Origin: Methanohalobium evestigatum Z-7303
Lineage (GTDB): Archaea; Halobacteriota; Methanosarcinia; Methanosarcinales; Methanosarcinaceae
Length of the DNA stretch: 64,000 nt
Assembly: GCF_000196655.1 (NCBI RefSeq)
Contig: NC_014253.1
Location: 620,001-684,000 of the forward strand
Direction: 5' to 3'
Shown: positions 1 through 13,717 of the stretch, piece after piece
Numbering within the stretch: position 1 is the stretch's first letter
How the letters are laid out: each line of letters begins with the position of its first letter
Translations under genes and position numbers: made by a program
The notes under the pieces: model-generated
Told to the model about the DNA's origin: nothing
Seen by the model: the letters and a program-made list of their open reading frames with translations, nothing else
The model's database searches: none

Positions 1-86
1 GTTTTTGGTGTGGCCGGTTGGTTGTCTGAAACCACCGGCTGAGTACTGGAGGTGTTGTACTGATCCCATGTCAGCTGCACAGCCAT
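1..86 (-). CDS. Partial hypothetical protein, cut by window edge
   Basis: An open frame starts at ATG 86-84, overlapping the TAA of the upstream HTH gene, and runs off the left edge. It begins MAVQLTWDQYNTSSTQPVV. The overlapping stop and start make it the next gene of the minus-strand small-gene operon. Only 28 residues are visible, rich in Ser, Thr, Gln and Pro, and no family can be named. Confidence 0.55.
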   Translation of the reverse strand, partial: MAVQLTWDQYNTSSTQPVVSDNQPATPK

Positions 87-304
87 TATACAAACCCCCA
101 TTCAGCTTTGTATTTTACAACAGTTCTGTTGGATATCCCGAGTTCCTCGGAGATTTCACGATTGTTCTTTCCTTCCTGCAGCATTCTGTACAGTTGTTCC
201 TGTTTCCATTCCGGAATCTGTTGACCACGGTTGCTGAGACTTTCGCGCTTTTGCTGCATGTTCTGGAAACGTTCGTATTCTTCAGGAGTTAATTTCAGAG
301 ACAT
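86..304 (-). CDS. Small helix-turn-helix protein of the integrated element
   Basis: A protein of 72 residues. The C-terminal half reads as a resolvase- or homeodomain-like helix-turn-helix (residues about 40-70, with REISEELGISNRTVVKYKAE), so it probably binds DNA as a regulator or element-partition factor. The start is taken as ATG 304 because GGGGTGA lies seven bases before it; a TTG one codon upstream is possible. The ATG overlaps the stop of the preceding 210-residue gene, so the two are translationally coupled. The N-terminal part is charged and Gln-rich with no known domain. Specific function is unknown. Confidence 0.65.
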   Translation of the reverse strand: MSLKLTPEEYERFQNMQQKRESLSNRGQQIPEWKQEQLYRMLQEGKNNREISEELGISNRTVVKYKAEWGFV

Positions 305-936
305 CAACCAGTCACCCCCTGTGATTCTCCGGACTCTACGACCGGTGCTCTGGTATCCACTCCTACCGTGAATGATTCAGCATCGTTCTTGGTGAGAACT
401 CCCCAGCTGTACTCGCAATCGAAGTTTGGATGCCTGTTGAAGTATTCAAAAATAGCCTTTGCTTTCTGGTATTTTAGAGGGATATCTTTGAATCTGGTTC
501 TCTCCGGGAGCTGCTGATACAGGTCCGTGAGGTCCTCGAATGTAGTGTGAAGTATGCATCCGGATGTCTCTTTGATTTTGATTATTCCGGTGTTCACGTC
601 TTTCTCTTCGTAGCTGAACTTTTTCCACTGTGGTTTTTCAGGTGGCTCTCTTTCCTGGAAGTCTATAGTAGGTTTAGGTTCAGCTGCATCTGTAACAGCT
701 GGTTTAGCAGGATCCTCGGGTTCCCGGTTAGAAGGTTCAACTTCATCTGGTCCGTCAGAAGTTCCGGATTCTTCAGTCGATTTTGGTTCCTCTGCTTCAG
801 AATTGATGTTGTTACAGCTGCACTTCTGAATCAGCTGGTCCACATCACTACAGATATCATCGATTGATTCTATCATTTCAACCGGGATTCCTTCCGGAAA
901 CAGGATTTTTAGTATACTTGTTTTAGTATTGTCCAT
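304..936 (-). CDS. Hypothetical acidic protein, element operon
   Basis: A protein of 210 residues. Residues about 1-45 are folded-looking and include a CSC motif; about 46-105 are a low-complexity, Glu/Pro/Ser/Thr-rich linker; about 105-210 form a second mixed alpha/beta part (KFSYEEKDVNTGIIKIKETSG and onward). No family is recognised. It lies between a 47-residue gene and the HTH gene on the same strand with coupled starts, so it belongs to the MCM operon of the integrated element. The two-domain-with-linker layout is compatible with a replication or virion accessory protein, but that is only inference. Confidence 0.6.
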   Translation of the reverse strand: MDNTKTSILKILFPEGIPVEMIESIDDICSDVDQLIQKCSCNNINSEAEEPKSTEESGTSDGPDEVEPSNREPEDPAKPAVTDAAEPKPTIDFQEREPPEKPQWKKFSYEEKDVNTGIIKIKETSGCILHTTFEDLTDLYQQLPERTRFKDIPLKYQKAKAIFEYFNRHPNFDCEYSWGVLTKNDAESFTVGVDTRAPVVESGESQGVTG

Positions 937-947
937 GGAAACACCTC

Positions 948-1091
948 TTAGAACATCTTTGATAGTGTGAGTTTGAGATTCTCTGCCGGTATTTCGATTA
1001 TGTCGCCTTCATCGTCCTGAATCCGTGCTGTTTCACCGTCGATATTGCACACAATAGTTCCATCACTCATTACTTGCTGGTCTAGTATCAT
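948..1091 (-). CDS. Very small hypothetical protein (47 aa)
   Basis: An ORF of 47 residues starting at ATG 1091, with a strong GAGGGGG ribosome-binding site nine bases upstream. The product begins MILDQQVMSDGTIVCNIDGE and is acidic, with alternating beta-strand-like residues. It sits in the 168-base gap between the MCM gene and the 210-residue gene, on the same strand. Function unknown. The strong binding site is the main reason to believe it is translated. Confidence 0.55.
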   Translation of the reverse strand: MILDQQVMSDGTIVCNIDGETARIQDDEGDIIEIPAENLKLTLSKMF

Positions 1092-1104
1092 TCAACAAAC
1101 CCCC

Positions 1105-3231
1105 TCAGCATATTATGTATGTACCAGTGTCGACTTCCATCAGGTCGCCCTGTTTTCTCATACGTCCGATGGCTTCATCGACCTGGTCGTTTGAGATGCC
1201 TTCTTTCTGAGCCTCTTCATAGATGTCGTGAATCGAAACTCCTTTCTGCCTACCCATCTGTGCGTTTGCATCCTCAAGGTCGTAGATGACCCAGTAGAGA
1301 TCTTTAATCTTGGACCTCTGAGAGTTGGATGTACCTGTTTCCAGGATATCAGTATCCAGTTTACCGGTCTGCGGGTCGACTGCGGACTGTTTGAGTGATT
1401 CCTGTATCAGGTCTATCGCATCCTGGACGTCCTGCTCGTTCACCCTATTATCCAGCCTCATCCTCGCAAAAGCTTCGGAAACCCGGATTATACTCTCAAG
1501 TTTCCTTGGTGTGACAGGTATCGAATCATCGCCCTTGTTGTGCCTGAGGTTCATCCAGAACTCGGTTATGCGGTCTTTGAGTTCTACAGGGAGTACAGGA
1601 ACAACGTTGTGTCTGGCGTAGCTGATGTATTTTTGAAGCAGGTCGAAACTTAGTACGGAATCGTCGGACTTTTCCTCGAGCTGCTGCTTAATCTGCAGAT
1701 ACTCGCTCTCTGTGAGGTTCTGCCTTGCTGAACTCTTTATATGGGTCGCTATTATGTGGTCGCTGAGTTCTCTATCCTTTACATCATCAGGTTTGTCAAG
1801 CATCAGGAATATCAGGTCGAACCGGGATATCAGAGACGGAGCCATCTGGACCTGTCTCGAGAGGGATTCATACTCATCGAACCGTCCATATTTCGGATTG
1901 GCAGCTCCCAGAACACTTGTCCTTGTGGACAATGTCAGGTGGATGTTAGCCTTGTTGATGGGTAATTTCTGCTGCGCCATTGCATCGTGAAGTGCGGACC
2001 TGTCTTCTTCACTCATCTTGTCGAGTTCGTCTATGCAGCAGAGACCTTTATCTGCCAATGGGAGAGCTCCGGCTTCAAGAGCAAACTGGTCGTCCATGTC
2101 CGGGTCATTTTTGATGACTGATGCAGTGAGTCCAGCTGCACTGTTACCTTTACCTGAAGTTATGATTGATTTTGGAGAGAGTGTAGCTGCATAATTCAGC
2201 AGTTTGGACTTCGACATACCGGGGTCTGAAACTGCAAGGACGTGGATGTCACCTCTTGTATATGCACCGTCTTCATGAGTTTTGGAAACTCCGGAAAACA
2301 GTTGTACTGCTATGGCCTTTTTGAGGTTCTGATAACCGTATATACTGGTGGCCATGGATCCAGCTATACGGTCCTTGATGTTCGGGTCCCTGGATAACTC
2401 AAGGACCTGTTCTTCGTCCTCCGGTGTCAGTTCAATTTCATCGAAATCCTTGTCCTGTTTTATGATATTGTTGACGTCAAGCAGGAACTTGAAGAACGGT
2501 TTTTTACCCTTGCTTGATTCTTCCTGTCTGCTTTGCAGGACTCCGTTTACCAGGATCTTGTCACCGGGTTTGCAGGTCTGGACCATGTCGTCATAGGCAT
2601 AGCAGATAAGGGTTTCAGGCTGGGATTTCTCGATATCCTCCGGGTTTTCCTGTATCTCTATTATCTGGACATCCCTATAGCTGGATTTGTCAACAAGGGT
2701 TTTGAACGGTCCTTTCCTACCACATACCTCGTTCTCGCACTCGTGGGGTTCTGTGAATTTGGAACCCGTTTGAGGAATGTAGGTTATGTGCTCACAGCGC
2801 ATGCAGTAGAAGGCTGCATTGACTATCATCGGTTTGACTTTGGATACCTTCTTGACTACACCGGGAATTGATACGAACTTCATCAGGTGGTCGGACCTGA
2901 AGGAACTGATATTGGTCTGTTCAGGAAAGTTGTAGATCCTCGGGACCACGTCCTGTCCTACGTCCACAGGAAGCGTCATGTTGTAGACTGCATCATGGAA
3001 CAAAGACAGGAATATATCCGGATTTTCTTCCAGCAGATCTGCGAAGGGATATCTCGGATGGTCCAGACTGTAGTAGTCTATAGGTATGCTTTTTGTCGCC
3101 GGATAATCCTTGAGATGTTCTGTGAGTTCGTCCCAGTAGTACCTTATCAGGACTTCTATTAGTTGTTCCTGTGAAAGTTCCGATGGGTTCGGTCTTTCAG
3201 ATGTTAGTAGTTCTGTTTCAGAAATTGACAT
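1105..3231 (-). CDS. mcm: MCM replicative helicase (element-encoded)
   Basis: A complete MCM helicase of 708 residues; MCM hexamers unwind DNA ahead of the fork in archaea. In order: N-terminal helical and OB-fold domain with a C4 zinc motif (Cys143, 146, 165, 170); AAA+ core with Walker A SDPGMSKSK (about 335-343), Walker B CCIDELDKM (about 398-406) and an SRFDLIF arginine-finger region; C-terminal winged helix (about 640-708). The first Walker A residue is Ser where most MCMs have Gly, but the Lys-Ser is kept. Its setting among tiny zinc-finger genes and next to GGTATC repeats suggests a plasmid or virus helicase rather than the chromosomal housekeeping copy. This is inference; a second mcm elsewhere in the genome would support it. 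Confidence 0.93.
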   Translation of the reverse strand: MSISETELLTSERPNPSELSQEQLIEVLIRYYWDELTEHLKDYPATKSIPIDYYSLDHPRYPFADLLEENPDIFLSLFHDAVYNMTLPVDVGQDVVPRIYNFPEQTNISSFRSDHLMKFVSIPGVVKKVSKVKPMIVNAAFYCMRCEHITYIPQTGSKFTEPHECENEVCGRKGPFKTLVDKSSYRDVQIIEIQENPEDIEKSQPETLICYAYDDMVQTCKPGDKILVNGVLQSRQEESSKGKKPFFKFLLDVNNIIKQDKDFDEIELTPEDEEQVLELSRDPNIKDRIAGSMATSIYGYQNLKKAIAVQLFSGVSKTHEDGAYTRGDIHVLAVSDPGMSKSKLLNYAATLSPKSIITSGKGNSAAGLTASVIKNDPDMDDQFALEAGALPLADKGLCCIDELDKMSEEDRSALHDAMAQQKLPINKANIHLTLSTRTSVLGAANPKYGRFDEYESLSRQVQMAPSLISRFDLIFLMLDKPDDVKDRELSDHIIATHIKSSARQNLTESEYLQIKQQLEEKSDDSVLSFDLLQKYISYARHNVVPVLPVELKDRITEFWMNLRHNKGDDSIPVTPRKLESIIRVSEAFARMRLDNRVNEQDVQDAIDLIQESLKQSAVDPQTGKLDTDILETGTSNSQRSKIKDLYWVIYDLEDANAQMGRQKGVSIHDIYEEAQKEGISNDQVDEAIGRMRKQGDLMEVDTGTYIIC

Positions 3232-3236
3232 TTATG

Positions 3237-3647
3237 TTAATCCTCCTTTTCGTTATCGGTCTGTGTCGGTTCGAGTGTTTTCAGAATTTTATCCGGATTT
3301 TTGGGATTCTGTCTCTGCACCAGATACTTCAAGAATAGTGTTCGGAGTGCTTCCATCTGGTAATATGCATCAGAACCCCTGTAATCAGTTGCAAGAGATT
3401 GAAGAACAGAATCCCGGAAATTATCAAAAAGTTCCATGAGATGATCGTCCATGTCTTTGGGGACGAGCCTCTCAAGAATCTGGTTGTATGTTAAATCCGG
3501 ATTCTTCTCTTTTTCATTTTTGATAAAGTCCGCCAGATAACTGTTAGATGGTATCTTAACCATCATCCTTTCATTCTTTTTAGAATTGTTTAGATTGTGA
3601 TTAGGTGGTATCTGGGTGGTATCGGATACCACCTCTCCAGGTGACAT
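3237..3647 (-). CDS. Hypothetical protein upstream of mcm
   Basis: An ORF of up to 136 residues ending six bases before the mcm start, so almost certainly co-transcribed with it. The well-formed part begins near residue 28 (MMVKIPSNSYLADFIKNEKE) and is alpha-helical and charged. The first 27 codons lie over the GGTATC repeat cluster at 3605-3645, so translation may instead start at the double ATG at 3566-3561, leaving the repeats as promoter or operator. No family recognised. Its place directly before the helicase suggests a replication initiator, loader or copy-control protein, which is inference only. Confidence 0.6.
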   Translation of the reverse strand: MSPGEVVSDTTQIPPNHNLNNSKKNERMMVKIPSNSYLADFIKNEKEKNPDLTYNQILERLVPKDMDDHLMELFDNFRDSVLQSLATDYRGSDAYYQMEALRTLFLKYLVQRQNPKNPDKILKTLEPTQTDNEKED

Positions 3648-3900
3648 CCCTTCAGGTCTGTTTTTTTGTTTTTTTGTGTGGATAGTTCCTGCAGTAATGG
3701 TAGCACACTCCTGTAATATTTTTGAGCACTACAGCCCTTACTTTCTTAATTGTTTAATCCATTCTTACATGATTCTTTGTAAAGTGAAGCCTTTACAGAG
3801 GGTATCAGGGTATCTATCCCTCCAAGGTGGTATCCGATACCAACCGGATACCAGTTATTAGATACCAACCAGATACCACCTATCAGATAACCATCCATAT
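3600..3900. repeat. GGTATC iteron-like cluster (candidate origin or operator)
   Basis: Two blocks hold many copies of GGTATC and its complement GATACC: one near 3605-3645 (GGTGGTATC, GGTATCTGG and the palindrome GGTATCGGATACC) and one near 3803-3892 (GGTATCAGGGTATC, GGTATCCGATACC, then AACCGGATACC, TTAGATACC and AACCAGATACC). Spacings are near 10-15 bases. Short, phased direct and inverted repeats beside a replicative helicase are typical of plasmid or viral origins, or of an autoregulatory operator. The second block overlaps the end of a weakly supported ORF, which fits a non-coding role. Confidence 0.6.
3685..3710. repeat. 26-bp direct repeat, copy 1
   Basis: The 26 bases here are repeated exactly at 4252-4277, 567 bp apart, in the same orientation (core CTGCAGTAATGGTAGC). 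They bracket the second GGTATC block and the 177-residue ORF. Confidence 0.85.
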
Positions 3901-4279
3901 CTTTACCTGATAGTGTTTTACTGGCTATTCCTAAAACATTACCAAATTCATGATAATGTCTCAATTCTTTTCCTATTATTTCTGGGTGTTTTAATGCAGG
4001 TATAGCTTTATCACCACCTTTTACATGAAGATGTGAATCATGATATCCTGTAGTTTCAGCTGCTGGGAGTTTTGAAACTCCGAGGAGACGGTAGGGAGTT
4101 AAGGTATCAGACACGTAGACGGGGGCATCGTAACCGGGGTCTCCCTCTTCAGCAGCACTTTTTGAATGAGATTTATATATCATGCAATCCCTCTTGTTAT
4201 TGCCTCCTTTGGTTTGTGGAGGTTCGAGCAAAAGGAAAGGGTAGGTAAGATGTTCCTGCAGTAATGGTAGCACACTCAT
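3746..4279 (-). CDS. Doubtful hypothetical protein overlapping iterons
   Basis: An open frame of 177 residues. Its first ten codons come from the 26-bp direct repeat, and its last 40 or so are read through the GGTATC cluster (GYLIGGIWLVSNNWYPVGIG), so neither end looks like a conserved protein. The middle (about 45-135) has a more ordinary composition with several His and Gly residues. The start overlaps the stop of the 123-residue gene, as elsewhere in this operon, which argues for translation. No family recognised. It may be a real gene whose tail has been overrun by repeats, or a chance ORF. Confidence 0.35.
   Translation of the reverse strand: MSVLPLLQEHLTYPFLLLEPPQTKGGNNKRDCMIYKSHSKSAAEEGDPGYDAPVYVSDTLTPYRLLGVSKLPAAETTGYHDSHLHVKGGDKAIPALKHPEIIGKELRHYHEFGNVLGIASKTLSGKDMDGYLIGGIWLVSNNWYPVGIGYHLGGIDTLIPSVKASLYKESCKNGLNN
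4252..4277. repeat. 26-bp direct repeat, copy 2
   Basis: Exact second copy of the repeat at 3685-3710. This copy covers the first codons of the 3746-4279 ORF, which suggests that the bracketed segment was inserted or duplicated by recombination at the repeat. Confidence 0.85.
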
Positions 4280-4647
4280 CTCCTACCTCCCTTCTTCATT
4301 CTCACTTTCTGTCTTGCTATAGCATCTGATTTTGTAGTGGGTACCAGTTTCTTACCGCCGTATTTCTGGAAGTCCTCGTACAGTTCATTGCTTCCTACAA
4401 GCTTACTGTACTGGTGCCCTTCTTCACATTCGAAGTGTCCAATTACACTTAATTCAGCTGTAACCTGTGCAAGGTAACATTGTGCGGATCTTCCGCAGTA
4501 GATGCAGCTGTCAAATACATTTCTCTCGGTGTGTTCAGCAAACCCTTCGACATATTCCTGGAATGTTATCGGCACAGTTTTCATACCGGAGAAGTACGTA
4601 AATCCGGTCTTTTTCGGATGCGATACCTTCTCGGTCTGAGAACTCAT
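4276..4647 (-). CDS. Small zinc-binding protein of the element
   Basis: A protein of 123 residues, not assigned to a family. Cysteines lie in SCIYCGRSAQC and in a later HFECEEGHQY segment, enough for one zinc site; the C terminus is strongly basic (ARQKVRMKKGGRR) and could touch nucleic acid. Its ATG overlaps the stop of the upstream 59-residue zinc-finger gene, and its own stop overlaps the next start, so it is in the middle of a coupled operon. Function unknown; a DNA- or RNA-binding accessory role is inferred from the charge and cysteines. Confidence 0.6.
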   Translation of the reverse strand: MSSQTEKVSHPKKTGFTYFSGMKTVPITFQEYVEGFAEHTERNVFDSCIYCGRSAQCYLAQVTAELSVIGHFECEEGHQYSKLVGSNELYEDFQKYGGKKLVPTTKSDAIARQKVRMKKGGRR

Positions 4648-4823
4648 CTGGCTACCTCCTTTCTCTGGATGGCTACCGGTGTTTTACCACCGCGTTTCCT
4701 AATCCTTGTACCAGGGTCAGTACCGGTCCACAAACACTCTGAACATCTATAGTCCATCATCCTTGTTCTCTTACGGATCTGGCTCGAACCGCATTCAGGA
4801 CAGCACTGTATGAATTCATTCAT
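4644..4823 (-). CDS. CxxC zinc-ribbon microprotein (59 aa)
   Basis: A 59-residue ORF starting at ATG 4823, which overlaps the stop of the preceding 45-residue gene; its own stop overlaps the next start at 4647. It has two Cys pairs (CCPECG and CSEC) separated by 16 or so residues and the signature RKRTRMMDYRCSECLWTG. The same signature occurs in the gene at 4954-5148 (RFRTRSRDYKCYSCHWTG), so the two are tandem paralogues of a zinc-ribbon family. The basic tail suggests nucleic-acid binding. Confidence 0.65.
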   Translation of the reverse strand: MNEFIQCCPECGSSQIRKRTRMMDYRCSECLWTGTDPGTRIRKRGGKTPVAIQRKEVAR

Positions 4824-4957
4824 TGTACCACCACCTCTTCACGGCTTTGACGGCGAAATACTGATATATCTTCATCACGTACATTTCCACCGTAGTCTTC
4901 ATAGATCTCACAATCATCTTCCGGGATGATTGTGATTTCTTCCCTTCTTCCCATCAT
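4820..4957 (-). CDS. Acidic microprotein (45 aa)
   Basis: A 45-residue ORF, beginning MMGRREEITIIPEDDCEIYE, with start and stop each overlapping the neighbouring genes by a few bases. No cysteine cluster and no known domain. The perfect fit between two coupled zinc-ribbon paralogues is the evidence that it is a gene. Confidence 0.5.
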   Translation of the reverse strand: MMGRREEITIIPEDDCEIYEDYGGNVRDEDISVFRRQSREEVVVQ

Positions 4958-5148
4958 TGTGCAACCTCCTGATTTGTTCCGGATATCTGGACGGCTGCAC
5001 CTTTATCCAGCTGGAATTTGCTGACCTTGCTGTCCGGTTGTTTCCCGGTCCAGTGACAGCTGTAGCACTTGTAGTCTCTGGACCTCGTTCTGAACCGCAC
5101 TTCACATGAACTGCACACCGGACAGCACATTATATTTCTACCTTTCAT
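4954..5148 (-). CDS. CxxC zinc-ribbon microprotein (64 aa)
   Basis: A 64-residue protein with CCPVCSSC and CYSCHWTG, four or more cysteines positioned for one zinc ribbon, starting at ATG 5148 after AGGAGGT. It is a paralogue of the 4644-4823 product. A 20-residue tail follows the ribbon. It is part of the coupled minus-strand operon; the role is unknown but the fold suggests DNA or RNA binding. Confidence 0.65.
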   Translation of the reverse strand: MKGRNIMCCPVCSSCEVRFRTRSRDYKCYSCHWTGKQPDSKVSKFQLDKGAAVQISGTNQEVAQ

Positions 5149-5170
5149 TATTGAGCAACCTCCTGATTAT

Positions 5171-5377
5171 TCATCTCTTTGCGTGTAATGGTTCCAGTTC
5201 CGGTTCTTTTATAACAGCTCTAACTATCAATCTGCAGCCGTCATAACCGGCTACATTTATGTTGCAATCAGTTTCCGGACCGATTTCGTCAAACCAATCC
5301 CATGGTTTGTTCAGGATATCCTCAATTTCTTCAGGATCTTCAACAGAAAAACATCTAAAAACAGGTCTCAGCTTCAT
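5171..5377 (-). CDS. Hypothetical protein (68 aa)
   Basis: A 68-residue acidic protein beginning MKLRPVFRCFSVEDPEEIED. The ATG at 5377 follows GGAGGCGATTGAACA and overlaps the stop of the 100-residue gene, so the two are coupled. No recognised domain. Confidence 0.55.
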   Translation of the reverse strand: MKLRPVFRCFSVEDPEEIEDILNKPWDWFDEIGPETDCNINVAGYDGCRLIVRAVIKEPELEPLHAKR

Positions 5378-5676
5378 TGTTCAATCGCCTCCTCTGGTGG
5401 TTCTATATCCTCCAAACGCAGCTCACTGGTGAACACTGGATTTAGCTGGTTGCAAATTTTGTAACCTTCCAGCTGACCTTTACCATTTATATGCGCCCTG
5501 CTTATACCGTATTCACAGTACCGACAGCGCTCGAAAAGTGCATAATCCGTACTGGATTTGTGTACCGGTATTGTCTCCGGATCTTCCAGGTCTACCTTGT
5601 CCAGAACAGATTTGGTGACTTTTGTCTCAAGCCGGTTATAAGGACATTCAAGGTTGACATCAGCTACCCAGTGCAT
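5374..5676 (-). CDS. Hypothetical Cys-containing protein (100 aa)
   Basis: A 100-residue protein with CRYCEYG at about residues 51-57 and further Cys at about 11 and 74, compatible with a single metal site. It starts directly after the stop of the 60-residue gene and is coupled to the 68-residue gene downstream. No family known to me; part of the element operon. Confidence 0.55.
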   Translation of the reverse strand: MHWVADVNLECPYNRLETKVTKSVLDKVDLEDPETIPVHKSSTDYALFERCRYCEYGISRAHINGKGQLEGYKICNQLNPVFTSELRLEDIEPPEEAIEQ

Positions 5677-5859
5677 TCAGTAATCCCCCATTGCTTCCAG
5701 CTGTTCTGGGTATGGTAGTGAACGTTCAGCTTTAGCCTCATCTTCTGCTTCCATCTCAGCTTCTATACATGCGGGACATTCAGCCGGGTCTGCATATGGG
5801 TCTTCAACTGAAATACCGTAATCATACCCACAAACCGGACATCTGATAGTATCGGACAT
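5677..5859 (-). CDS. Zinc-finger microprotein (60 aa)
   Basis: A 60-residue protein with two CxxC pairs (CPVCG and CPAC) 18 residues apart, then a strongly acidic tail (EAEMEAEDEAKAE). The start ATG 5859 has GGAGTG just before it. This is the layout of small viral or plasmid zinc-finger proteins. Confidence 0.6.
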   Translation of the reverse strand: MSDTIRCPVCGYDYGISVEDPYADPAECPACIEAEMEAEDEAKAERSLPYPEQLEAMGDY

Positions 5860-6048
5860 TCACTCCACCCCCGCAACGAGTTTTATAGTCCTGGCTAGAT
5901 TTCTGTCGAATTCGTTACCGAACTGTTCAAGGTAATCCAGGGTATCTTTATCATCACTGCATATTTGTGAAGCAATCTTCCTGGACTCTTTACTGATAGA
6001 ATCCAGATTTGTTGATTGGGATTGGTTTTGTTGAACTTCACCAGCCAT
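5860..6048 (-). CDS. Hypothetical helical protein (62 aa)
   Basis: A 62-residue protein starting at ATG 6048, chosen over an upstream start because GGAGGAT lies seven bases before it. Beginning MAGEVQQNQSQSTNLDSISK, it has a polar N terminus and a helical C-terminal half. Unknown function; co-directional with overlapping or abutting neighbours. Confidence 0.5.
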   Translation of the reverse strand: MAGEVQQNQSQSTNLDSISKESRKIASQICSDDKDTLDYLEQFGNEFDRNLARTIKLVAGVE

Positions 6049-6050
6049 TT

Positions 6051-6218
6051 TTAATCCTCCTCTGGGCATTCCTGATTACCCGGAATTTTGCCCGTCAGAC
6101 CGCAGATTTTCCTCTTTCTGATTCTGTCACCCGCTACTATGTCCTCTGTTTCAAGATGCGGACACTCTACATCCGCACAGTTCTTGGCACTGGGTTTGAA
6201 CTTCTTGGTAGTCTTCAT
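6051..6218 (-). CDS. Zinc-finger microprotein (55 aa), tandem paralogue 2
   Basis: A 55-residue ORF starting at ATG 6218-6216, overlapping the TGA of the upstream gene by one base. It has Cys in NCADVECPHL, ICGLTG and ECPEED. The pattern CPHL...KICGLTGKIPG...CPEED matches its upstream neighbour (CPFL...YICGKVGMIPG...CPLEDD), so the two arose by tandem duplication. Four to five cysteines could hold one zinc or an iron-sulfur cluster. Confidence 0.65.
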   Translation of the reverse strand: MKTTKKFKPSAKNCADVECPHLETEDIVAGDRIRKRKICGLTGKIPGNQECPEED

Positions 6219-6406
6219 CAGTTATCATCCTCCAATGGACAACGTGTCAATCTTCCAGGAATCATGCCGACCTTGCCGCAGATATACCTGTAGACTATTC
6301 GATTACCACCGGGATAGTAACTAACAGTCTTCAAAAAAGGACAATTTGAACGGTTACAGCTTTGTTCAGACTGCTGCGGGTTGTTTATCGTGGTTGCAGC
6401 CTGCAT
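6218..6406 (-). CDS. Zinc-finger microprotein (62 aa), tandem paralogue 1
   Basis: A 62-residue product when started at ATG 6406, which has the strong site GGAGGTGA; an open frame continues upstream but overlaps the RHH gene. Cysteines lie in SCNRSNCPFL, ICGKVG and RCPLEDD. Paralogous to the 55-residue product immediately downstream. It follows the RHH regulator with overlap, so it is probably under the control of that regulator. Confidence 0.65.
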   Translation of the reverse strand: MQAATTINNPQQSEQSCNRSNCPFLKTVSYYPGGNRIVYRYICGKVGMIPGRLTRCPLEDDN

Positions 6407-6593
6407 CGCAGTCACCTCCTTCCTCATTCTCTTCTTTATCCATCTCACTCCTTTTGTTAATCATCAAACAAGTTCTAACAAGACTTCTGACAACATCGCT
6501 TCTGTTTTTGTAGTAGTTGTTCTCGACTAATTCATCGATTTCTTTTACAGTTCCATTAGGGAACCGTGTGCATATTGTTGTTTCAGACATCAA
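6366..6593 (-). CDS. Ribbon-helix-helix transcription regulator
   Basis: A 75-residue protein whose first 45 residues fit a ribbon-helix-helix (CopG/NikR N-terminal) fold: TTICTRFPNGTVKEIDELVE, then helices with YYKNRSDVVRSLVRTCL. The C terminus has a short Cys/His patch (CDAGCNHDK). As the first gene of the minus-strand operon and adjacent to AT-rich inverted repeats at 6604-6760, it is probably the autorepressor of the element. The other side of the same region carries a second, divergent RHH gene. The start may be the second of two adjacent ATGs. Confidence 0.8.
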   Translation of the reverse strand: MMSETTICTRFPNGTVKEIDELVENNYYKNRSDVVRSLVRTCLMINKRSEMDKEENEEGGDCDAGCNHDKQPAAV

Positions 6594-6603
6594 ATCACCT
6601 AAC

Positions 6604-6760
6604 CATTGTCTTACAATTGTTATATAATGACATTATAATTTATAAATTTTACTATTGTTATACAATTACAAAAACAAAACGGTTTATAAGGCTTTGACTA
6701 ACAATAGTATTGTTATTATTATAAAAAATTATTAAAAGTATGGTCTAACAACTGTAATAT
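6604..6760. promoter_or_regulatory. Divergent promoter with inverted-repeat operators
   Basis: The region between two divergent RHH genes holds several related AT-rich inverted repeats. They include a perfect 17-bp palindrome TAACAATAGTATTGTTA (6699-6715), ACAATTGT at about 6613-6620, and partial copies such as ACTATTGTTATACAATTA near 6650. TATA-like TTATTATAAAA at about 6713-6723 would serve the plus-strand gene at 6762. RHH dimers usually bind short palindromes, so these are the likely operators. Confidence 0.6.
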
Positions 6761-6761
6761 A

Positions 6762-7106
6762 ATGACTGCTGAATCTAAACGTAAAAAAAATACTATTTGT
6801 GCTACCGTAAGTCCTTATGTAAAAAAAAGAGTAGATGATTTAGTGAACTCTAATGATTTCAGCAGTATGTCTGACCTTGTTTCTCAGGCTCTTTCAGAAT
6901 TTATTGCTAATTATGAAAAGAAAGACAAAGAAGACATCACTGATATTGTAAGAGATATCATAGAAAATGACCCAGAAATAAATAAAGTTATAATGGGCAA
7001 GCTGAAAAAACAAATGTTTCCTGATGAATCCAGTGATGAAACATCTAAATCTAATTCTAAAGTCAAGGTCCCTGAAAAACATTCACAAATAAAAACCGAT
7101 GACTAA
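6762..7106 (+). CDS. Ribbon-helix-helix domain protein
   Basis: A 114-residue protein; residues about 8-50 (TICATVSPYVKKRVDDLVNS and SMSDLVSQALSEFI) fit an RHH DNA-binding domain. The rest is highly charged, Lys/Glu/Ser-rich and probably unstructured or partner-binding. Divergently transcribed from the RHH gene at 6366-6593 across a palindrome-rich region. It opens the plus-strand defence island and may control it or act as an antitoxin-like regulator. Confidence 0.75.
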   Translation: MTAESKRKKNTICATVSPYVKKRVDDLVNSNDFSSMSDLVSQALSEFIANYEKKDKEDITDIVRDIIENDPEINKVIMGKLKKQMFPDESSDETSKSNSKVKVPEKHSQIKTDD

Positions 7107-7121
7107 TAACAGGGGGATTTT

Positions 7122-7496
7122 ATGCCATATCATAAGTCCGAATGTCCGGTATGCGGTAATCTCAACTTTGTAAATATAAAACAAAAGATTGTGGAGCACT
7201 ACGAAAACGGACATTTAGTCGGTACGGATTTTATGGATGCAAAGTTGAAAGAAACCGTTTCTGCAGACAAGCTTGTAGATGATATACTGTCATCCCTAGC
7301 AGAACATCTCTACAACGGTATAACGATTAAAAAGCTCTGTAAAATGCTGCATGATATATACGGCATCGTCGAGGACTTTTGCTGCGACATGATACAGAAG
7401 ATAAAATACGAACTTTGCATGTACTGTCCAGATCGTTGCCACCTCTATTTCGTAGACGAGGAGGTTGAGCAGGAAATTAAGGGTCAAAAGATGTGA
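7122..7496 (+). CDS. Zinc-finger protein at island start
   Basis: A 124-residue protein starting after CAGGGGGATTTT. It opens with a CPVCG pair, and ends with a second Cys/His group, CMYCPDRCHLYFVDEE; the middle is helical (DKLVDDILSSLAEHLYNGI). No family known to me. Its last 20 codons recur as decayed pieces at about 8788-8840 and 9815-9861, behind each of the next defence modules, which makes this gene a likely anchor for insertion of cargo. Function unknown, possibly a regulator of the island. Confidence 0.6.
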   Translation: MPYHKSECPVCGNLNFVNIKQKIVEHYENGHLVGTDFMDAKLKETVSADKLVDDILSSLAEHLYNGITIKKLCKMLHDIYGIVEDFCCDMIQKIKYELCMYCPDRCHLYFVDEEVEQEIKGQKM

Positions 7497-7500
7497 TTTT

Positions 7501-7968
7501 ATGGTTTTGTCAGATGATGAAATAAAACAACTTATTGAAGATGAGAAACCACTAAAATCAGAAACTATCAATTCAATCAATTCAAATCTCAAATTTAAAA
7601 ACCAAGCTAAAAGATGGGAATACGAATTAATATCTGAATCAGGAAACAAATTTGAAATAAAAATAAGAATTAATGATAATCATCCTTATAACTTCACGGT
7701 AATACTTCAATATAAAGACGAAAAAGGACATATATACAGACTACGTAGATATAATGGGAAACATACACATCAAAATAAAATTGAAAATAACCGCTTCAGA
7801 GACTTCCACATACATAAAGCCACACAAAAGTACCAAGAAAATGGTCATGAAATAGATGGATATGCAGAAGTAACAAATTCATATGATAATTGGGAAGACG
7901 CTTTCCAAACCATGATAAAGGAATGCAATTTTAAGTTAGATAATCGCCCTCTAACAGAATTTACTTGA
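7501..7968 (+). CDS. DUF6978-like protein (155 aa)
   Basis: A 155-residue protein starting at ATG 7501, just after the stop of the zinc-finger gene. The second half has the pattern FRDFHIHKATQKYQENG and IDGYAEVTNSYDNWEDAF, which resembles the DUF6978 family; this is recalled by motif, not searched. It ends nine bases before the DUF1828-like gene, so the two form a two-gene unit. Such pairs are found in mobile and defence contexts, and a toxin-antitoxin or abortive-infection role is possible but not shown. Low GC compared with the 1-6 kb region supports separate acquisition. Confidence 0.6.
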   Translation: MVLSDDEIKQLIEDEKPLKSETINSINSNLKFKNQAKRWEYELISESGNKFEIKIRINDNHPYNFTVILQYKDEKGHIYRLRRYNGKHTHQNKIENNRFRDFHIHKATQKYQENGHEIDGYAEVTNSYDNWEDAFQTMIKECNFKLDNRPLTEFT

Positions 7969-7977
7969 GGACTGCGT

Positions 7978-8775
7978 ATGAATCAGTCAGATACCTTGGA
8001 ATTGGAGCCCATTGTAAATAAAATAAAAAAATCGATTTGCGATGATATCGAGGTAATCATCGAAGGTAAAAGTAGAATTGTTGTTATCACACCATTTACA
8101 TTTGATGATGGCGATTTTTTAAACGTAGTTCTCAAATATGATTACCCATATTGGTATTTTACAGATGAAGGCGATACATTAATGCATCTATCTTATGATG
8201 ACTTAGATGAAAAACTTGAAAAAGGCAAAAGGAAAGATATGTTTGATACTATCTTAAAAACCCATGATATAAAAAATAAAGACGGTGAATTGAAATTAAA
8301 CGTTGATGATGAAAAATTCGGGGATTGTTATTTTACATTTATTCAGGGTTTAGTAAAAATAATAGATTTATCTTCATTCACAAAAAAAGACAACATAAAA
8401 ACCCTCTTTTATGAAGAATTTAAAAAATATATGCAGGATACCTTTGGTGAAAAATGTAAATTTGAATATACTGACCCGGTTTATGATCCTGATGGTAAAT
8501 ATGTTATAGATTGTTATGTAGAAAACAAGGTACCTTTATTTGTATTTGGTTTATACAATGATGATAAATGCAGAGATGCAACGATAACATGTCATTTTTA
8601 CAGAGAAAAAGGCATTACATATAATTCTATAGCTATCTTTGAAGACCAGGAAAAAATAAATAAAAAAGTCCTTGCAAGGTTTAGCGACGTTGTTGATAAG
8701 CAATATACAACACTACCATCGGCAAAAAGCCAACTTCCAGAATATTTAGAAAAAATGGGAATGAATGTGAATTAA
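7978..8775 (+). CDS. DUF1828 domain protein
   Basis: A 265-residue protein. Residues about 25-120 resemble DUF1828: IVVITPFTFDDGDFLNVVL, then WYFTDEGDTLMHLSYDD, with the aspartate-rich strand typical of that domain. The C-terminal half (about 150-260) contains FEYTDPVYDPDGKYVIDCYV and could be the DUF1829-like partner domain often fused behind it. It is the second gene of the pair with the DUF6978-like gene. The biochemical role of the family is not established; the neighbourhood argues for defence or toxin-antitoxin function. Confidence 0.65.
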   Translation: MNQSDTLELEPIVNKIKKSICDDIEVIIEGKSRIVVITPFTFDDGDFLNVVLKYDYPYWYFTDEGDTLMHLSYDDLDEKLEKGKRKDMFDTILKTHDIKNKDGELKLNVDDEKFGDCYFTFIQGLVKIIDLSSFTKKDNIKTLFYEEFKKYMQDTFGEKCKFEYTDPVYDPDGKYVIDCYVENKVPLFVFGLYNDDKCRDATITCHFYREKGITYNSIAIFEDQEKINKKVLARFSDVVDKQYTTLPSAKSQLPEYLEKMGMNVN

Positions 8776-8784
8776 CTTCATTTG

Positions 8785-8845
8785 GTATTCAGACAGGTGC
8801 CACCTGTATTTTGTTGATGGGGGGAGCAGGTGCAGAACAAGTGTA
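8785..8845 (+). pseudogene. Decayed copy of zinc-finger gene tail (scar 1)
   Basis: Read in frame, this stretch gives YSDRCHLYFVDGGSRCR, matching CPDRCHLYFVDEE at the end of the 7122-7496 gene, with clear nucleotide similarity (for example TGCCACCTGTATTT against TGCCACCTCTATTT). There is no start or full domain. It is best read as a leftover 3' end from recombination that placed the DUF1828 pair upstream. Confidence 0.55.
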
Positions 8846-8867
8846 AGTTCAAGATTTAATAGATAAT

Positions 8868-9809
8868 ATGGTCACAAAAAACGATGAAATAATAAAAAGA
8901 GCAGAAGAAATAGTCGATACAATAGAAAATCTCCATAATTGCAATCTTGATAATTCAATGCACTTTTTAAATAGTATTTTAATAAAATATAAACATCTAG
9001 CTAAATTAGTGGAAGATACTGATGAAATAAAATGGATTAATTGTGAATTAAATGGGTACTCTAATGAAAAAGTTCCATCATACCGTATAATAAAATATGG
9101 GAATTCATACGGTTACATAAAATATAGTATTTATGACTTAATGGAATGGATTAATAATTACAAAAGAAAAAGTTTTTTAATCAGATCCTTAAATCCAAAT
9201 GAAAGTATAGATGTGCCACAGATACCAGTATCACCTTATATATTAAAAAAAATTATGTATAAAATCATTTTTATAGTAATTCATAATAAAACCATTAATA
9301 TATTATACAATTCCAAATTCGGAAAAATTGAATCGGATATCTTTGATGAAAACCATAAACATGTTGATAATAAACTTAATGAAACCTGCCCTGAAGCTTT
9401 AAAAAGCCTTACAAAAATCTATGAGGACTTATCCAGAAGCGAAGAAACATTTGATTACAGACAGGTAGCTTCCGGATGCAGGAAAGTGCTACAGGAATTT
9501 GCCGACACTGTTTTTGAGCCACGTGATAAAAAACGTGAAGGTTTAGATGATAAACTTCACCCAGTTGGTCAAGATAACTGGGTGAATAGGATTATAGCTT
9601 ATGTGGAAGATAATATAAAATCAGATACAGATGCTGAATTTATTAACAGCCATATCGGATATCTCGCTAATTACCTTGAAATGACATATAAACTGACAAA
9701 CAAAGGGGAGCATGAAAAGATATCCAAGGAATTTGCCAACAGGTGTGTTATAAATACATATCTGGTGCTGGGTGAAGTTATAAATTTGACAAATGGGGAT
9801 AATGAATAA
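8868..9809 (+). CDS. AbiTii-like abortive infection protein
   Basis: A 313-residue protein. The N-terminal 100 residues fit the AbiTii domain: helical start, AKLVEDTDEIKWINCELNGY, and YRIIKYGNSYGYI; in this family WI..ELNGY is characteristic. The C-terminal half (about 170-310) is a helical domain with FDYRQVASGCRKVLQEFADT and TNKGEHEKISKEFANRC, resembling the AbiJ/HEPN-like C-terminal domains found in defence proteins. It stands alone between two scar copies of the zinc-finger tail. A role in aborting viral infection is inferred from the domain and the island. Confidence 0.7.
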   Translation: MVTKNDEIIKRAEEIVDTIENLHNCNLDNSMHFLNSILIKYKHLAKLVEDTDEIKWINCELNGYSNEKVPSYRIIKYGNSYGYIKYSIYDLMEWINNYKRKSFLIRSLNPNESIDVPQIPVSPYILKKIMYKIIFIVIHNKTINILYNSKFGKIESDIFDENHKHVDNKLNETCPEALKSLTKIYEDLSRSEETFDYRQVASGCRKVLQEFADTVFEPRDKKREGLDDKLHPVGQDNWVNRIIAYVEDNIKSDTDAEFINSHIGYLANYLEMTYKLTNKGEHEKISKEFANRCVINTYLVLGEVINLTNGDNE

Positions 9810-9814
9810 TATTA

Positions 9815-9861
9815 TCTGTATTTTGCTGATAAAGGAAATGCAGGAGTGGAGAATTAAAAAT
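9815..9861 (+). pseudogene. Decayed copy of zinc-finger gene tail (scar 2)
   Basis: This stretch includes CTGTATTTTGCTGAT and GCAGG followed by GAGAAT, matching scar 1 (CTGTATTTTGTTGAT and GCAGG). Read in frame it gives LYFADKGNAGVEN, echoing LYFVDEE of the 7122-7496 gene. It follows the AbiTii module just as scar 1 follows the DUF1828 module. Confidence 0.45.
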
Positions 9862-9885
9862 TATATTTTCATCTAATATTTAACA

Positions 9886-11439
9886 ATGAGGAGTAATTGG
9901 ATGGTACCATCTGAGAATTGGTTAAAAGATGCTATATTGAATTCAAAATTACCAAAATTAATTCCCAATTATAAAGTTGAAACTATTTTAACTAAAACCC
10001 ATTCATTTGATAATTATTGTTATCCCACCATACTTTATGATATTTTGACCTGTTCATTTGCTATATGTGGAACAGGAGATAAAGAGGATATATCTAATGA
10101 AGAATTTGAAAAAATTTTGTATGAATGTATGAGAATTTTAGAATTAAAGCCTACTTATAGACTATTCCCATTAAATCATTTTGGATTAGTTCAGAATATT
10201 AGACCTCCATGGTACTCTATTCCTATATATAAGGAAATATTAAAACCATTTAGTAAAAAATTCAAATTAAAATACGGTGTTTCAATCGAATACGTATTTG
10301 AATTTGCTGAAAAATTATCTTCGATAAAAAATGAAATGAACGATGCGCACATAAAAAGCGATTTTCCAAAAGAGTTATCATTTTTAATAAATGATTTAAC
10401 AGTAAAAATTTCTGATGTAGAAAAATTAGAAGATATTTGGGATAAACTTTTTGTTCAGATTAATGATAATTATATCATTTTATTAGATTATAAAGTAGCA
10501 GACAATATCTATCTTTATCTGAACCAAAAATTAGGTTCAACAATTAAAAAATTTGGTAAAATAAAAGGAGACCATCTTGAAGATTTAGTTGAAAAAAAAT
10601 TGAAGGATTTTCTTCCTAATTTTGTTACTTTTAAAAATTATTATATTAATGAGTTCGAAAAAGATATTTTAGTTACACATAAAAAAATGGGTTTTTGTAT
10701 CGAATGTAAATCAGTAAAAATCAGACCATCCTCATTTGATTGGTCCAAACTAAATTTAAAGAATGATATTAAAAGTGATGTATCTCATGCTCTTAATCAA
10801 ATAAGTAAACCTTTGAATATATTATCTAAGGGTGGAAAAATTATATATGATAATAAAAGTTACAAAATAAAACCTAAAAATAATTATTATGGATTAATTA
10901 TAACTGATCAAATATACACACCATTGATCCGAGAAGCATTAGATGAGTTAAATAATTTTGAGAGATCACATAAAAATGATGAATGGCATGGAAAAGATAT
11001 TTGGATAGGATCCTTTATAGATTTTACTTTTTTGCTACAAGTCAGTCAAACTCCATCTATATTATTGGATTTTTTAAAACATATTAAGTCAATCGAGAAA
11101 CTAAAGTATACTGATGAACCAGAATCTTGGTTATTTTATTGTATGGAACCTGTTTATCCATATATGAGAGAAATTGCGAAAAATCATAAAGCAAATATAG
11201 CACTAAATGATTTTGGATGGGATGATTTTTATTATAAAGGAGCTGAATACTATAAACCGATATGGTTAGATGATAGTAAATTAAATGTTATACATAAATA
11301 TGACAAACAAGGCTTATTTCCCAATTCATTTAGTATAATTAATCAATGTAGAGATAAAACATATAAACAAAGTAAAGCTCGAACTGAAAAACTAAATCCT
11401 AAAGATAAAAAAACTATTTTAAAAGGCTCGGAAGTTTAA
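9886..11439 (+). CDS. Large PD-(D/E)xK nuclease-like defence protein
   Basis: A 517-residue protein, very AT-rich and without neighbours in an operon. Near residues 250-275 it has EFEKDILVTHKKMGFCIECKSVKIR: an Asp, a turn and ECK, the usual PD-(D/E)xK nuclease core; GDHLEDLVEKKLKDFLPNF shortly before is the helix that often precedes it (NERD/restriction-like). Residues 1-200 and 330-517 are not recognisable to me. A start four codons later (ATG 9901) is possible. Position in the island suggests a stand-alone anti-phage nuclease; substrate and trigger are unknown. Confidence 0.6.
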   Translation: MRSNWMVPSENWLKDAILNSKLPKLIPNYKVETILTKTHSFDNYCYPTILYDILTCSFAICGTGDKEDISNEEFEKILYECMRILELKPTYRLFPLNHFGLVQNIRPPWYSIPIYKEILKPFSKKFKLKYGVSIEYVFEFAEKLSSIKNEMNDAHIKSDFPKELSFLINDLTVKISDVEKLEDIWDKLFVQINDNYIILLDYKVADNIYLYLNQKLGSTIKKFGKIKGDHLEDLVEKKLKDFLPNFVTFKNYYINEFEKDILVTHKKMGFCIECKSVKIRPSSFDWSKLNLKNDIKSDVSHALNQISKPLNILSKGGKIIYDNKSYKIKPKNNYYGLIITDQIYTPLIREALDELNNFERSHKNDEWHGKDIWIGSFIDFTFLLQVSQTPSILLDFLKHIKSIEKLKYTDEPESWLFYCMEPVYPYMREIAKNHKANIALNDFGWDDFYYKGAEYYKPIWLDDSKLNVIHKYDKQGLFPNSFSIINQCRDKTYKQSKARTEKLNPKDKKTILKGSEV

Positions 11440-11466
11440 ATTTACAAAAACTACCTATTACTCTTA

Positions 11467-12771
11467 TTACTTTATATGCACATTTTTAACTATCCACTTC
11501 AACCAGCTTTTGACGGTTGAAGCTCTTCTTTTTGGTGTACCGGATGTAAGAGATGTATGCTTGGATATAATGGAAGATATTAGATTATCATCCAGATTAC
11601 TAAGTTCAAAATCATAATCTTTCAAAGATATTATAATTTCATGGAAAGTGGGTCTTTTTAACAACTGCTGTAAAAATATGTAGTTTCTTTCTGACCGATA
11701 TACAGAATGAGCCAGCTTTTTCCCGGTTTCAGTTAACCTAAATTCGCCATTATTAGTTTTTGTAAGAAAACCAAGATATCTGGCTGCATTTGCATAGTAA
11801 TCTCCCTGTCTTTCTCGAAATTCAAAATAGGAAGCAATTAAAAATTTGTTGTTATATCCGTTTTCAATATTTTTGACTACATCAATTATTTTATCAACAT
11901 CATTGGCCTGTGGATACGGTACAGAGGACGGTTCACATTCAACCTTGGTATTATTCAATAAATAATCCAAATCAACTGATAAATACGGGTTATCATTGAC
12001 AGTATAGCAGTTTTTATCAACTATTCTCAGGTCTCCGAAATTATTTCCGAATTCGAATTTGGTAAGATAAAATAACCCGTTGGTATATGTAAAAAATATG
12101 GGAACAACATTCTTTGATGTTTTTTCCAACCATTCCCTGTAGGGATAATAAAGCTGCCTTATATGGAAATTATCCCGTTTACCAACTTTTGCTTCAATCA
12201 GGTAAATATCACCAGGACTTTCATAACCGGCATCCAGTTCAATTTGTACACCTGATACATTTACTGTATGATTGTGATTTGGTAGATTAAATTGAAATTG
12301 TCCGGATCTTAATCTACCTCTTATTGTAAGATAAAGATCCCTTTCATTGGTAAACGTTCTCAAAACAGAGGCCAGATATGCATAATCTATTGCCTGGGAT
12401 TCACTATAATTATTGTCTTTTGGAAGTGTCTGGAAATTGCTTAAGTCAAGACCAGGTCTATGTTCCTGAATAACAAGACTGTCCAAAATAGAATTGAAAT
12501 CAAAATAGCTATCCAGATTATAATCTTTAAAAACAATATAATATCCGTTGGACACCGGTAATATGCTTAGATTTTCTTTTTTGAATAGCTCAGGTCTTGA
12601 TTCTTTCGTATCAAATTTTGCCATTAACCGGGGTTCACGGTCTCCGTATTGCTTCAGATCCTCTGCTGATACATAGGCAAATCCATGGTTGGCTAAATCG
12701 TTTTTCAAATCCAGATTTTTAAAAACTTTCTCCCACGCATCATCATTTAAGTTATTCTTAGCCTTAGACAT
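11467..12771 (-). CDS. Type II restriction endonuclease
   Basis: A 434-residue protein whose start overlaps the end of an adenine methylase by eight bases. The nuclease core is at about residues 175-220: VQIELDAGYESPGDIYLIEAK then VGKRDNFHIRQLYYPYREW, giving the D...E-x-K catalytic triad of PD-(D/E)xK enzymes. The C-terminal 100 residues contain a winged-helix-like region (ARYLGFLTKTNNGEFRLTETGK), often used for DNA recognition. It would cut DNA not protected by the partner methylase. The recognition site cannot be read from sequence. Confidence 0.8.
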   Translation of the reverse strand: MSKAKNNLNDDAWEKVFKNLDLKNDLANHGFAYVSAEDLKQYGDREPRLMAKFDTKESRPELFKKENLSILPVSNGYYIVFKDYNLDSYFDFNSILDSLVIQEHRPGLDLSNFQTLPKDNNYSESQAIDYAYLASVLRTFTNERDLYLTIRGRLRSGQFQFNLPNHNHTVNVSGVQIELDAGYESPGDIYLIEAKVGKRDNFHIRQLYYPYREWLEKTSKNVVPIFFTYTNGLFYLTKFEFGNNFGDLRIVDKNCYTVNDNPYLSVDLDYLLNNTKVECEPSSVPYPQANDVDKIIDVVKNIENGYNNKFLIASYFEFRERQGDYYANAARYLGFLTKTNNGEFRLTETGKKLAHSVYRSERNYIFLQQLLKRPTFHEIIISLKDYDFELSNLDDNLISSIISKHTSLTSGTPKRRASTVKSWLKWIVKNVHIK

Positions 12772-13717
12772 AATAATCGTAATTTGTGATTATCAATTCG
12801 TTAATGGAACCGCGTTTTTTACCGTTACAATTAATCATCCTGGTGGCTTTAACTCTTTCAATATTATAGTCTGTATAAAGGTTGTCAAAGAAATCATCAT
12901 CTGGATTTTCATTTTTGGGGTCCGAATTGCTCAGCATTATTTTTGAACCCATGGAGTCCAATCTGTGATAAAATCTGCACAGCCTGTATTGTTCATTATC
13001 ATCAAAACAGTCCTTGGAGTAAGAATTAAAACTGGATGTCTGGTTCAAGGGCCGGTAAGGAGGATCAATATATACAAAAGTATTACTGTCAACAACAGGC
13101 TCACAATCAGAAAAATCACCCAGATGTATATAAACACCCTGGAGAACTCTGGAAACACTTCTTAAGTTTTCATCATCCAGTATTGTAGGGTTTTTATGAC
13201 TTCCTATAGGAACATTAAATTCTCCCTTTGAATTAACTCTGAATAAACCATTGTAACAGGTTTTATTAAGGAATATCAATTGTGCAGCTCTTTCAACCCA
13301 TTTATTACTGTATGTGCTAAAATCGATATCTGGTTTGTTTTTATTGAAACTTTTTCTGATGCTGTAATAAAATTCCTTTCTATTGCTGTGGTCAAGTGCA
13401 AGGTATTCAGATTGCAGTGTTTTCAGACGTTTTATCAAATATTCTACATCGTTTTTTACTACCCTGTAGGCAAGGATTAGCTCTTCATTCAAATCATAAA
13501 TATGGCATTCTTTAAAATCATAATTCTGAATTACATGAAAGAATACTGCGCCACCGCCAACAAAAGGTTCTACGTACTTTTTCAGTTTAACTGTATCTAA
13601 ATCATCCGGAAATCGCTTTTCAAATTCTTCGATAAGCTGTTTTTTCCCACCAGCCCATTTTAAGAATGGTTTTGCAGTAGCCATATTTTTAGATAATTTA
13701 CTAATCTCGTTTTGCAT
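12764..13717 (-). CDS. DNA adenine-N6 methyltransferase (Dam/D12 family)
   Basis: A 317-residue D12-class adenine methylase. The SAM-binding motif is FLKWAGGKKQL (about 18-28) with VEPFVGGGAVFFHV, and the catalytic motif IV is YIDPPYRP (about 218-225), as in Dam and DpnIIA. It transfers methyl to adenine N6 and here should protect the host from the coupled endonuclease downstream. The reading frames overlap, so expression of the methylase precedes the nuclease. The first eleven codons (before MATAKPF) could be untranslated. Convergent with the nuclease-like gene at 9886. Confidence 0.9.
   Translation of the reverse strand: MQNEISKLSKNMATAKPFLKWAGGKKQLIEEFEKRFPDDLDTVKLKKYVEPFVGGGAVFFHVIQNYDFKECHIYDLNEELILAYRVVKNDVEYLIKRLKTLQSEYLALDHSNRKEFYYSIRKSFNKNKPDIDFSTYSNKWVERAAQLIFLNKTCYNGLFRVNSKGEFNVPIGSHKNPTILDDENLRSVSRVLQGVYIHLGDFSDCEPVVDSNTFVYIDPPYRPLNQTSSFNSYSKDCFDDNEQYRLCRFYHRLDSMGSKIMLSNSDPKNENPDDDFFDNLYTDYNIERVKATRMINCNGKKRGSINELIITNYDYYV

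Follow-up and report, generated by a model that had tools for sequence, protein, structure and literature searches.

It is not settled how defence genes come together in islands, particularly in archaea, and the stretch of DNA studied here (64,000 nt, called the window) raises the question in a concrete form. Unrelated defence genes lie clustered at 7501-13717 behind a small zinc-finger (ZF) gene, and a preliminary description of the locus held that the end of the ZF gene recurs behind two of these modules, and that the modules would have been inserted one after another at its 3' end. The question is therefore whether the ZF 3' end is a site at which genes are added and, if so, by what kind of recombination. 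Short copies of the ZF gene 3' end are referred to as tails.

The ZF gene (7122-7496, + strand) is the head of the array and encodes a 124-residue protein with a CxxC motif and the C-terminal end CMYCPDRCHLYFVD. No other full ZF gene was found in the host genome (G000; 2,406,232 bases in two contigs). The protein gave no Pfam match and no PHROG or PDB match of weight, and its predicted fold (mean pLDDT 77.8) matched nothing in the PDB at E<=0.001, the hits being weak winged-helix matches. A family alignment of 15 full-length members (110 positions) likewise retrieved no relatives from Pfam, PHROGs or PDB sequences. By profile search the family is present in 57 of 85 Methanosarcinaceae genomes (at least 90% complete), with one genus reaching up to 13 copies in a genome, and its best conserved part is the C terminus. 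Directly upstream of the ZF gene is a small gene (6762-7106, + strand, 114 aa) that appears RHH-like by eye, although nothing in Pfam scored above cut-off; a relative precedes 18 of the 41 full-length ZF genes examined by no more than 700 bp, and the two genes possibly form a regulator pair.

Leave-one-out DNA profiles run over 210 kb of the host genome recovered the tails of the window. Tail A (7405-7487, + strand, E=1.2e-8) is the 3' end of the ZF gene itself with cargo behind it and tail B (8768-8846, + strand, E=2.8e-9) is a second copy; each ranked directly after the three training copies. The core TGCCACCTNTATTTYGTWGAYG was matched with 0 mismatches at 7437-7458, inside the ZF gene, and at 8798-8819, compared with 0.01 matches at <=3 mismatches in the shuffle control. 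Tail B is beyond doubt a real copy of the ZF end. Tail C (9805-9857, + strand, best part 9814-9847) is weaker and shorter, ranking eighth with E=0.1 alone. Its Smith-Waterman score against B was 25, a value that none of 150 mononucleotide shuffles reached (maximum 23); a likeness of A to C was unsupported, as 33 of 150 shuffles reached the score. A profile built without C and E (a tail of the second array described below) ranked E (0.012) and C (0.048) next after its own members over 114 kb. Tail C lies directly behind the AbiTii stop codon and, because it resembles B and stands at a module junction, is probably a copy of the ZF end. A looser pattern gave 18 matches genome-wide, the best five being tails A, B, C and two members of the second array, D and F; the reversed pattern gave 7. 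No further tails were found in the window after C.

The modules between these tails are those named in the preliminary description. Tail A is followed by a DUF6978 protein (7501-7968, + strand, 3.6e-8) and a DUF1828 protein (7978-8775, + strand, 5.7e-27), the PDC-M24A and PDC-M24B of PADLOC, and tail B by an AbiTii protein (8868-9809, + strand, 4.2e-23). The nuclease after the last tail, a putative PD-(D/E)xK enzyme in that description, is of the NERD type (9886-11439, + strand, 22.0 bits versus a cut-off of 22.1); no tail was found behind it and it may be either a third cargo or flank. A type II restriction enzyme-like protein (DUF6996/6997/7226; 11467-12771, - strand) and a D12 adenine methyltransferase (12764-13717, - strand) complete the right flank. 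On the left, a virus-like integrated element (G000:C1:600001-627500, comprising locus L005 and window positions 1-7106) carries a Zot-like ATPase, pilin-like proteins, a tyrosine integrase (L005 13041-13709) and an MCM helicase (1105-3231, - strand, phrog_10371, 2.9e-184); a search for its att repeats gave none that were convincing.

A second tail array lies 460 kb from the window in the same genome. Tail D (G000:C1:166101-166178, E=1.4e-8) stands behind a 246-aa ORF, tail E (G000:C1:166625-166698, E=0.015) behind a 138-aa ORF and tail F (G000:C1:170405-170486, E=3.4e-8) behind a type I methyltransferase and specificity subunit, both opposite to the tail in orientation. Because tails keep to one orientation whereas cargo is found in either, tails do not belong to the cargo genes. 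A free micro-peptide, MYCPDRQHLYFVEA, was considered as the function of the tails and rejected in this genome, because tail D contains a stop and tail E a deletion. Tails of the Methanococcoides type start at ATG or GTG, and the differences among them are mostly silent. G001, the one congener compared, has single tails only and offered no empty counterpart of the window array. A seventh tail of the host genome (2098282-2098342; L133 10282-10341, - strand in L133) was detected with E values of 1e-6 to 2e-8, the latter from a profile of A, B, D and F, and adjoins two M24 peptidase genes.

If modules entered serially, empty sites in relatives should carry a single intact ZF end, as the preliminary description had pointed out, and one orthologous locus was indeed found in three states. 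It has no insert in L164 (genome G073), one in L065 (G016) and two in L062 (G003), and the flanks match upstream over 3 kb and downstream at 79-94%. In L164 the ZF end runs directly into the downstream DNA, with the downstream gene at +84. In L065 the ZF end is followed by 459 bp of inserted DNA carrying an 82-aa ORF; next come a tail, from base -27 onwards, and downstream DNA of the L164 type (83%). In L062 the order is ZF end, an 815-bp insert with a reversed ion-channel gene (PF07885, 1e-17), tail, the 82-aa ORF (95% identical to the L065 version), tail and the shared downstream DNA. A gene plus its tail is thus the unit gained or lost at this locus, whichever the direction; L164 may have lost the older unit instead of never having gained it. 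The ion-channel insert is flanked by 45-bp repeats in which 43 of 45 bases are identical, and since these two repeats share changes absent from L065, the youngest unit adjoins the ZF end. The bases upstream of the two repeats differ, though both are preceded by ZF-like codons, those of the incoming unit reading MKIELD. A transposon with target-site duplication was considered and rejected, because the right repeat is preceded by further ZF-like codons unlike those of the left copy. Neither insert encodes a recombinase. The ZF copy at this locus is itself truncated, from about codon 53, and as insertions thus occur also behind truncated copies, it is the DNA and not the protein product that matters.

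Other loci gave the same anatomy with other cargo, the second expectation of the preliminary description: HSP20, an M28 peptidase, a TIR protein with a type I restriction system, UDG and a surface-type protein all stand between tails elsewhere, so that, with the ion channel, cargo is not always defence. In L122 the space from ZF to tail is occupied by the TIR protein together with a complete type I restriction set, and L181 has three tails, separated by 0.6 and 0.9 kb, with small genes in the intervals. L114 has the order ZF, surface-type protein, tail and further tails. L116 and L120 have a common right flank that starts within the tail (base -22) and different left neighbours. In L051 the ZF end is followed by a 585-bp HSP20 segment and a tail, and a separate HSP20 copy in L160 matches this segment at 90%, the match ending at the first bases of the tail. 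A DUF2173 insertion behind a ZF remnant (980 bp in L135, 748 bp in L134) had no recognisable tail at its right edge. Two side observations concern these loci. A surface-type gene of 605-612 aa without Pfam match faces a tail head to head in L114 and L181; in L048 its head-to-head partner is a full ZF gene. L114 also contains a tRNA-Ser (12137-12227) behind an FKBP gene, and the 3' end of this tRNA is repeated 3.8 kb on (about 8340-8370); the resulting tRNA-type island overlaps the tail array, and its place holds different cargo in sister species.

The distribution of copies over the family was examined by merging 150 matches into 142 copies. Among the matches listed, 48 copies were full, 33 C-only (starting at position 79 or later), 40 C-part, 4 N-only, 10 N-part and 7 middle. 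Because 30-aa pieces were detectable for 11 of 15 members at the N-terminal end and for 15 of 15 at the C-terminal end, the excess of 33 C-only over 4 N-only copies among the matches listed is not due to detection alone (binomial 3e-5 with detection allowed for, an upper bound on the contrast as decayed copies detect even worse at the N end). Neighbouring copies within 12 kb, among the matches listed, were on the same strand in 19 of 22 pairs and on opposite strands in 3 (P=4e-4), and where exactly one of a pair was full, the full copy was upstream (5/5 among the matches listed), as it also is in the window (A, B, C), L051 and L114. When 4-kb segments around 84 copies were compared by BLAST with all loci collected, filled/empty breaks fell exactly at the ZF end for 3 of 11 comparable anchors (84 tried), versus breaks at 18 of 460 comparable random anchors (1200 tried; P=0.01). 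These data bear on another account of the tails, namely that tandem ZF duplicates lost their N-terminal parts and only the conserved C terminus is still recognisable. Decayed ZF copies do exist (L124, L059, L065) and conservation is highest at the C terminus, but empty and filled states of one locus, the C-only excess with detection allowed for, and tails having 12-14 intact codons with unrelated DNA directly upstream make plain decay most improbable.

We consider it likely that the ZF 3' end is an attachment-like site to which units, each of one or more genes with its own copy of the ZF end, are added serially, a reading supported chiefly by the three-state locus. The last ZF codons would act as the site, and the incoming unit would bring one to a few genes and its own ZF end. 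Each addition would leave the ZF gene an end and push the previous end, with everything behind it, downstream, and repeated additions would give the order ZF, cargo, tail, cargo, tail. In the relatives such units have been gained or lost at one locus with the newest next to the ZF end, and tails keep one orientation while cargo takes either. The window is built alike, its cargo being PDC-M24A/B followed by AbiTii, and presumably its array arose in the same way. Strand exchange would be performed by a site-specific recombinase, probably a tyrosine recombinase, supplied in trans, with crossover near the codons HLYFV, the part common to tails. Site-specific recombination is favoured by the fixed orientation, the gain of units, the serial order, the core repeats and the att-like length; archaeal att sites are given as 40-60 bp for several integrases in PMC8371274, and the tail lengths fit this range.

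The 5' edge of the tails varies, lying from about 14 to >80 bases before the last V codon with no single point, and most neighbouring cores have low identity; both observations keep homologous recombination in play. By this route circles or linear pieces with a ZF end would recombine among dispersed ZF copies through ordinary cell machinery with no dedicated enzyme; in one genus up to 13 ZF copies per genome would be available as partners. The 43/45 identical repeats around the newest cargo in L062 would suit such a process, as would the MKIELD codons upstream of the repeat, by which the incoming homology was longer than the repeat. Cores of 45 bases are, however, near-identical (43/45) between neighbouring copies only in L062 and L114; in the other pairs 14-37 of 45 bases agree (ungapped), and such copies are poor substrates. 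Moreover, homologous exchange does not readily explain why tails kept the 3' side only, as in the C-only excess above, and we regard it as unlikely.

The setting of the ZF gene points to the ends of integrated elements. In all four IMG/VR contigs that carry it, found by the ZF alignment (the window protein alone found none), the gene lies 15-828 bp from the contig end and reads outward; plasmid and phage records gave no ZF matches. L048 carries a tyrosine integrase (PF00589, 1.5e-11) whose end is 3 bp past the ZF stop, no displaced tail being found to its right, and in L051 a split tyrosine integrase is 2.7 kb away from a tail. In G114:C89, G107:C1, G111:C1 and G014:C2 an L048-type integrase accompanies a full ZF gene at a distance of 24-34 kb, in one relative orientation throughout. 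No convincing att repeats of these four elements were found, and the host genome of the window has no match to this integrase at E<=1e-8, which counts against tying it to the site. In L126 a displaced tail is fused (by eye) to a decayed tRNA-Leu 3' end, and at the empty site of L142, a 99%-identical neighbour, the tRNA-Leu is intact; a ZF copy in L168 also lies beside a decayed tRNA-Leu 3' end (by eye). The contig ends, the L126 tRNA, the L048 integrase and the virus-like element of the window together argue that the ZF gene often is the outermost gene of an integrated element and the first host of the site. Tails could then be leftovers of full-size elements that accreted in tandem and shrank, cargo being the remnant, and arrays of this kind are described from archaea in PMC6563490. 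The contig ends, the L048 integrase and the tRNA-Leu remnants fit such an origin. However, both inserts with an empty counterpart are small (459 and 815 bp) and hold one gene each, within one genus, and comparison with the separate L160 copy shows the HSP20 segment of L051 stopping exactly at the edge of the tail; we therefore think shrunken elements very unlikely and retain the addition of small units at the ZF end. The idea that the ZF end is generally paired with tRNA-like 3' ends was also considered, and rejected, because an intact T-arm stands behind only 1 of 52 ZF copies in addition to the decayed ends in L126 and L168; such ends are an occasional setting.

Should the serial addition hold family-wide in Methanosarcinaceae, the tails would serve as bar codes that mark where an island starts, the order of arrival and the travelling unit, and their positions could lead to defence genes not yet characterised. 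Such addition would also join integrons as a second way to stack single genes one by one, and the three-state locus offers a direct test system for the enzyme. A bolder version, in which Methanosarcinaceae own an integron-like but non-integron platform where single tail-tagged genes enter at the ZF end with a recombinase in trans, we put forward as a possibility only, and one that we doubt rather than believe.

Several known systems resemble the ZF arrays in part. Gene 3'-end hot spots have empty and filled sites and one orientation with the gene copy at the head, and so do the ZF arrays, in which no recombinase was found in the window cargo or in the 459- and 815-bp inserts. An insert-encoded recombinase is typical of autonomous elements only. 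Defence islands resemble the window, where PDC-M24, AbiTii and restriction genes lie side by side, and L122 with its TIR protein and type I system; ZF arrays elsewhere differ from such islands in holding ordinary cargo (ion channel, HSP20, UDG, peptidase). NitEve-E2 of Nitrososphaera is described in PMC6563490 as a whole element in the 3' end of a Zn-finger gene, the reading frame of which is restored. It shares with the ZF arrays a Zn-finger gene 3' end as target and a demonstrated empty versus filled site, but is, in that description, a complete mobile element whose att site measures 13 bp, whereas the ZF units are mostly of one to three genes, are serial and belong to another archaeal lineage. 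Tandem accretion at tRNA or gene 3' ends by tyrosine recombinases, as outlined in PMC8371274, also leaves displaced 3' ends in one orientation and uses sites of the length given above; the ZF arrays differ in that the window cargo and the two inserts with an empty counterpart lack an integrase.

Integron cassettes, archaeal ones included, are like the ZF arrays in having a head gene, the newest cassette first and small units each with its site, according to the account in PMC9668308. A true integron with attC sites could thus be invoked, given units of one to a few genes with the newest at the head and the occurrence of integrons in archaea reported there. However, all ten tails folded no better than shuffles (z -1.2 to +1.2), and the ZF site is the end of a coding gene, so that a true integron is scarcely conceivable. 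Neither this ZF family nor its tails and arrays turned up in any report in our literature search. Hot spots at gene ends and serial insertion as a kind are already known; new are the size of the units, their lack of an integrase of their own and the family-wide use of one gene end.
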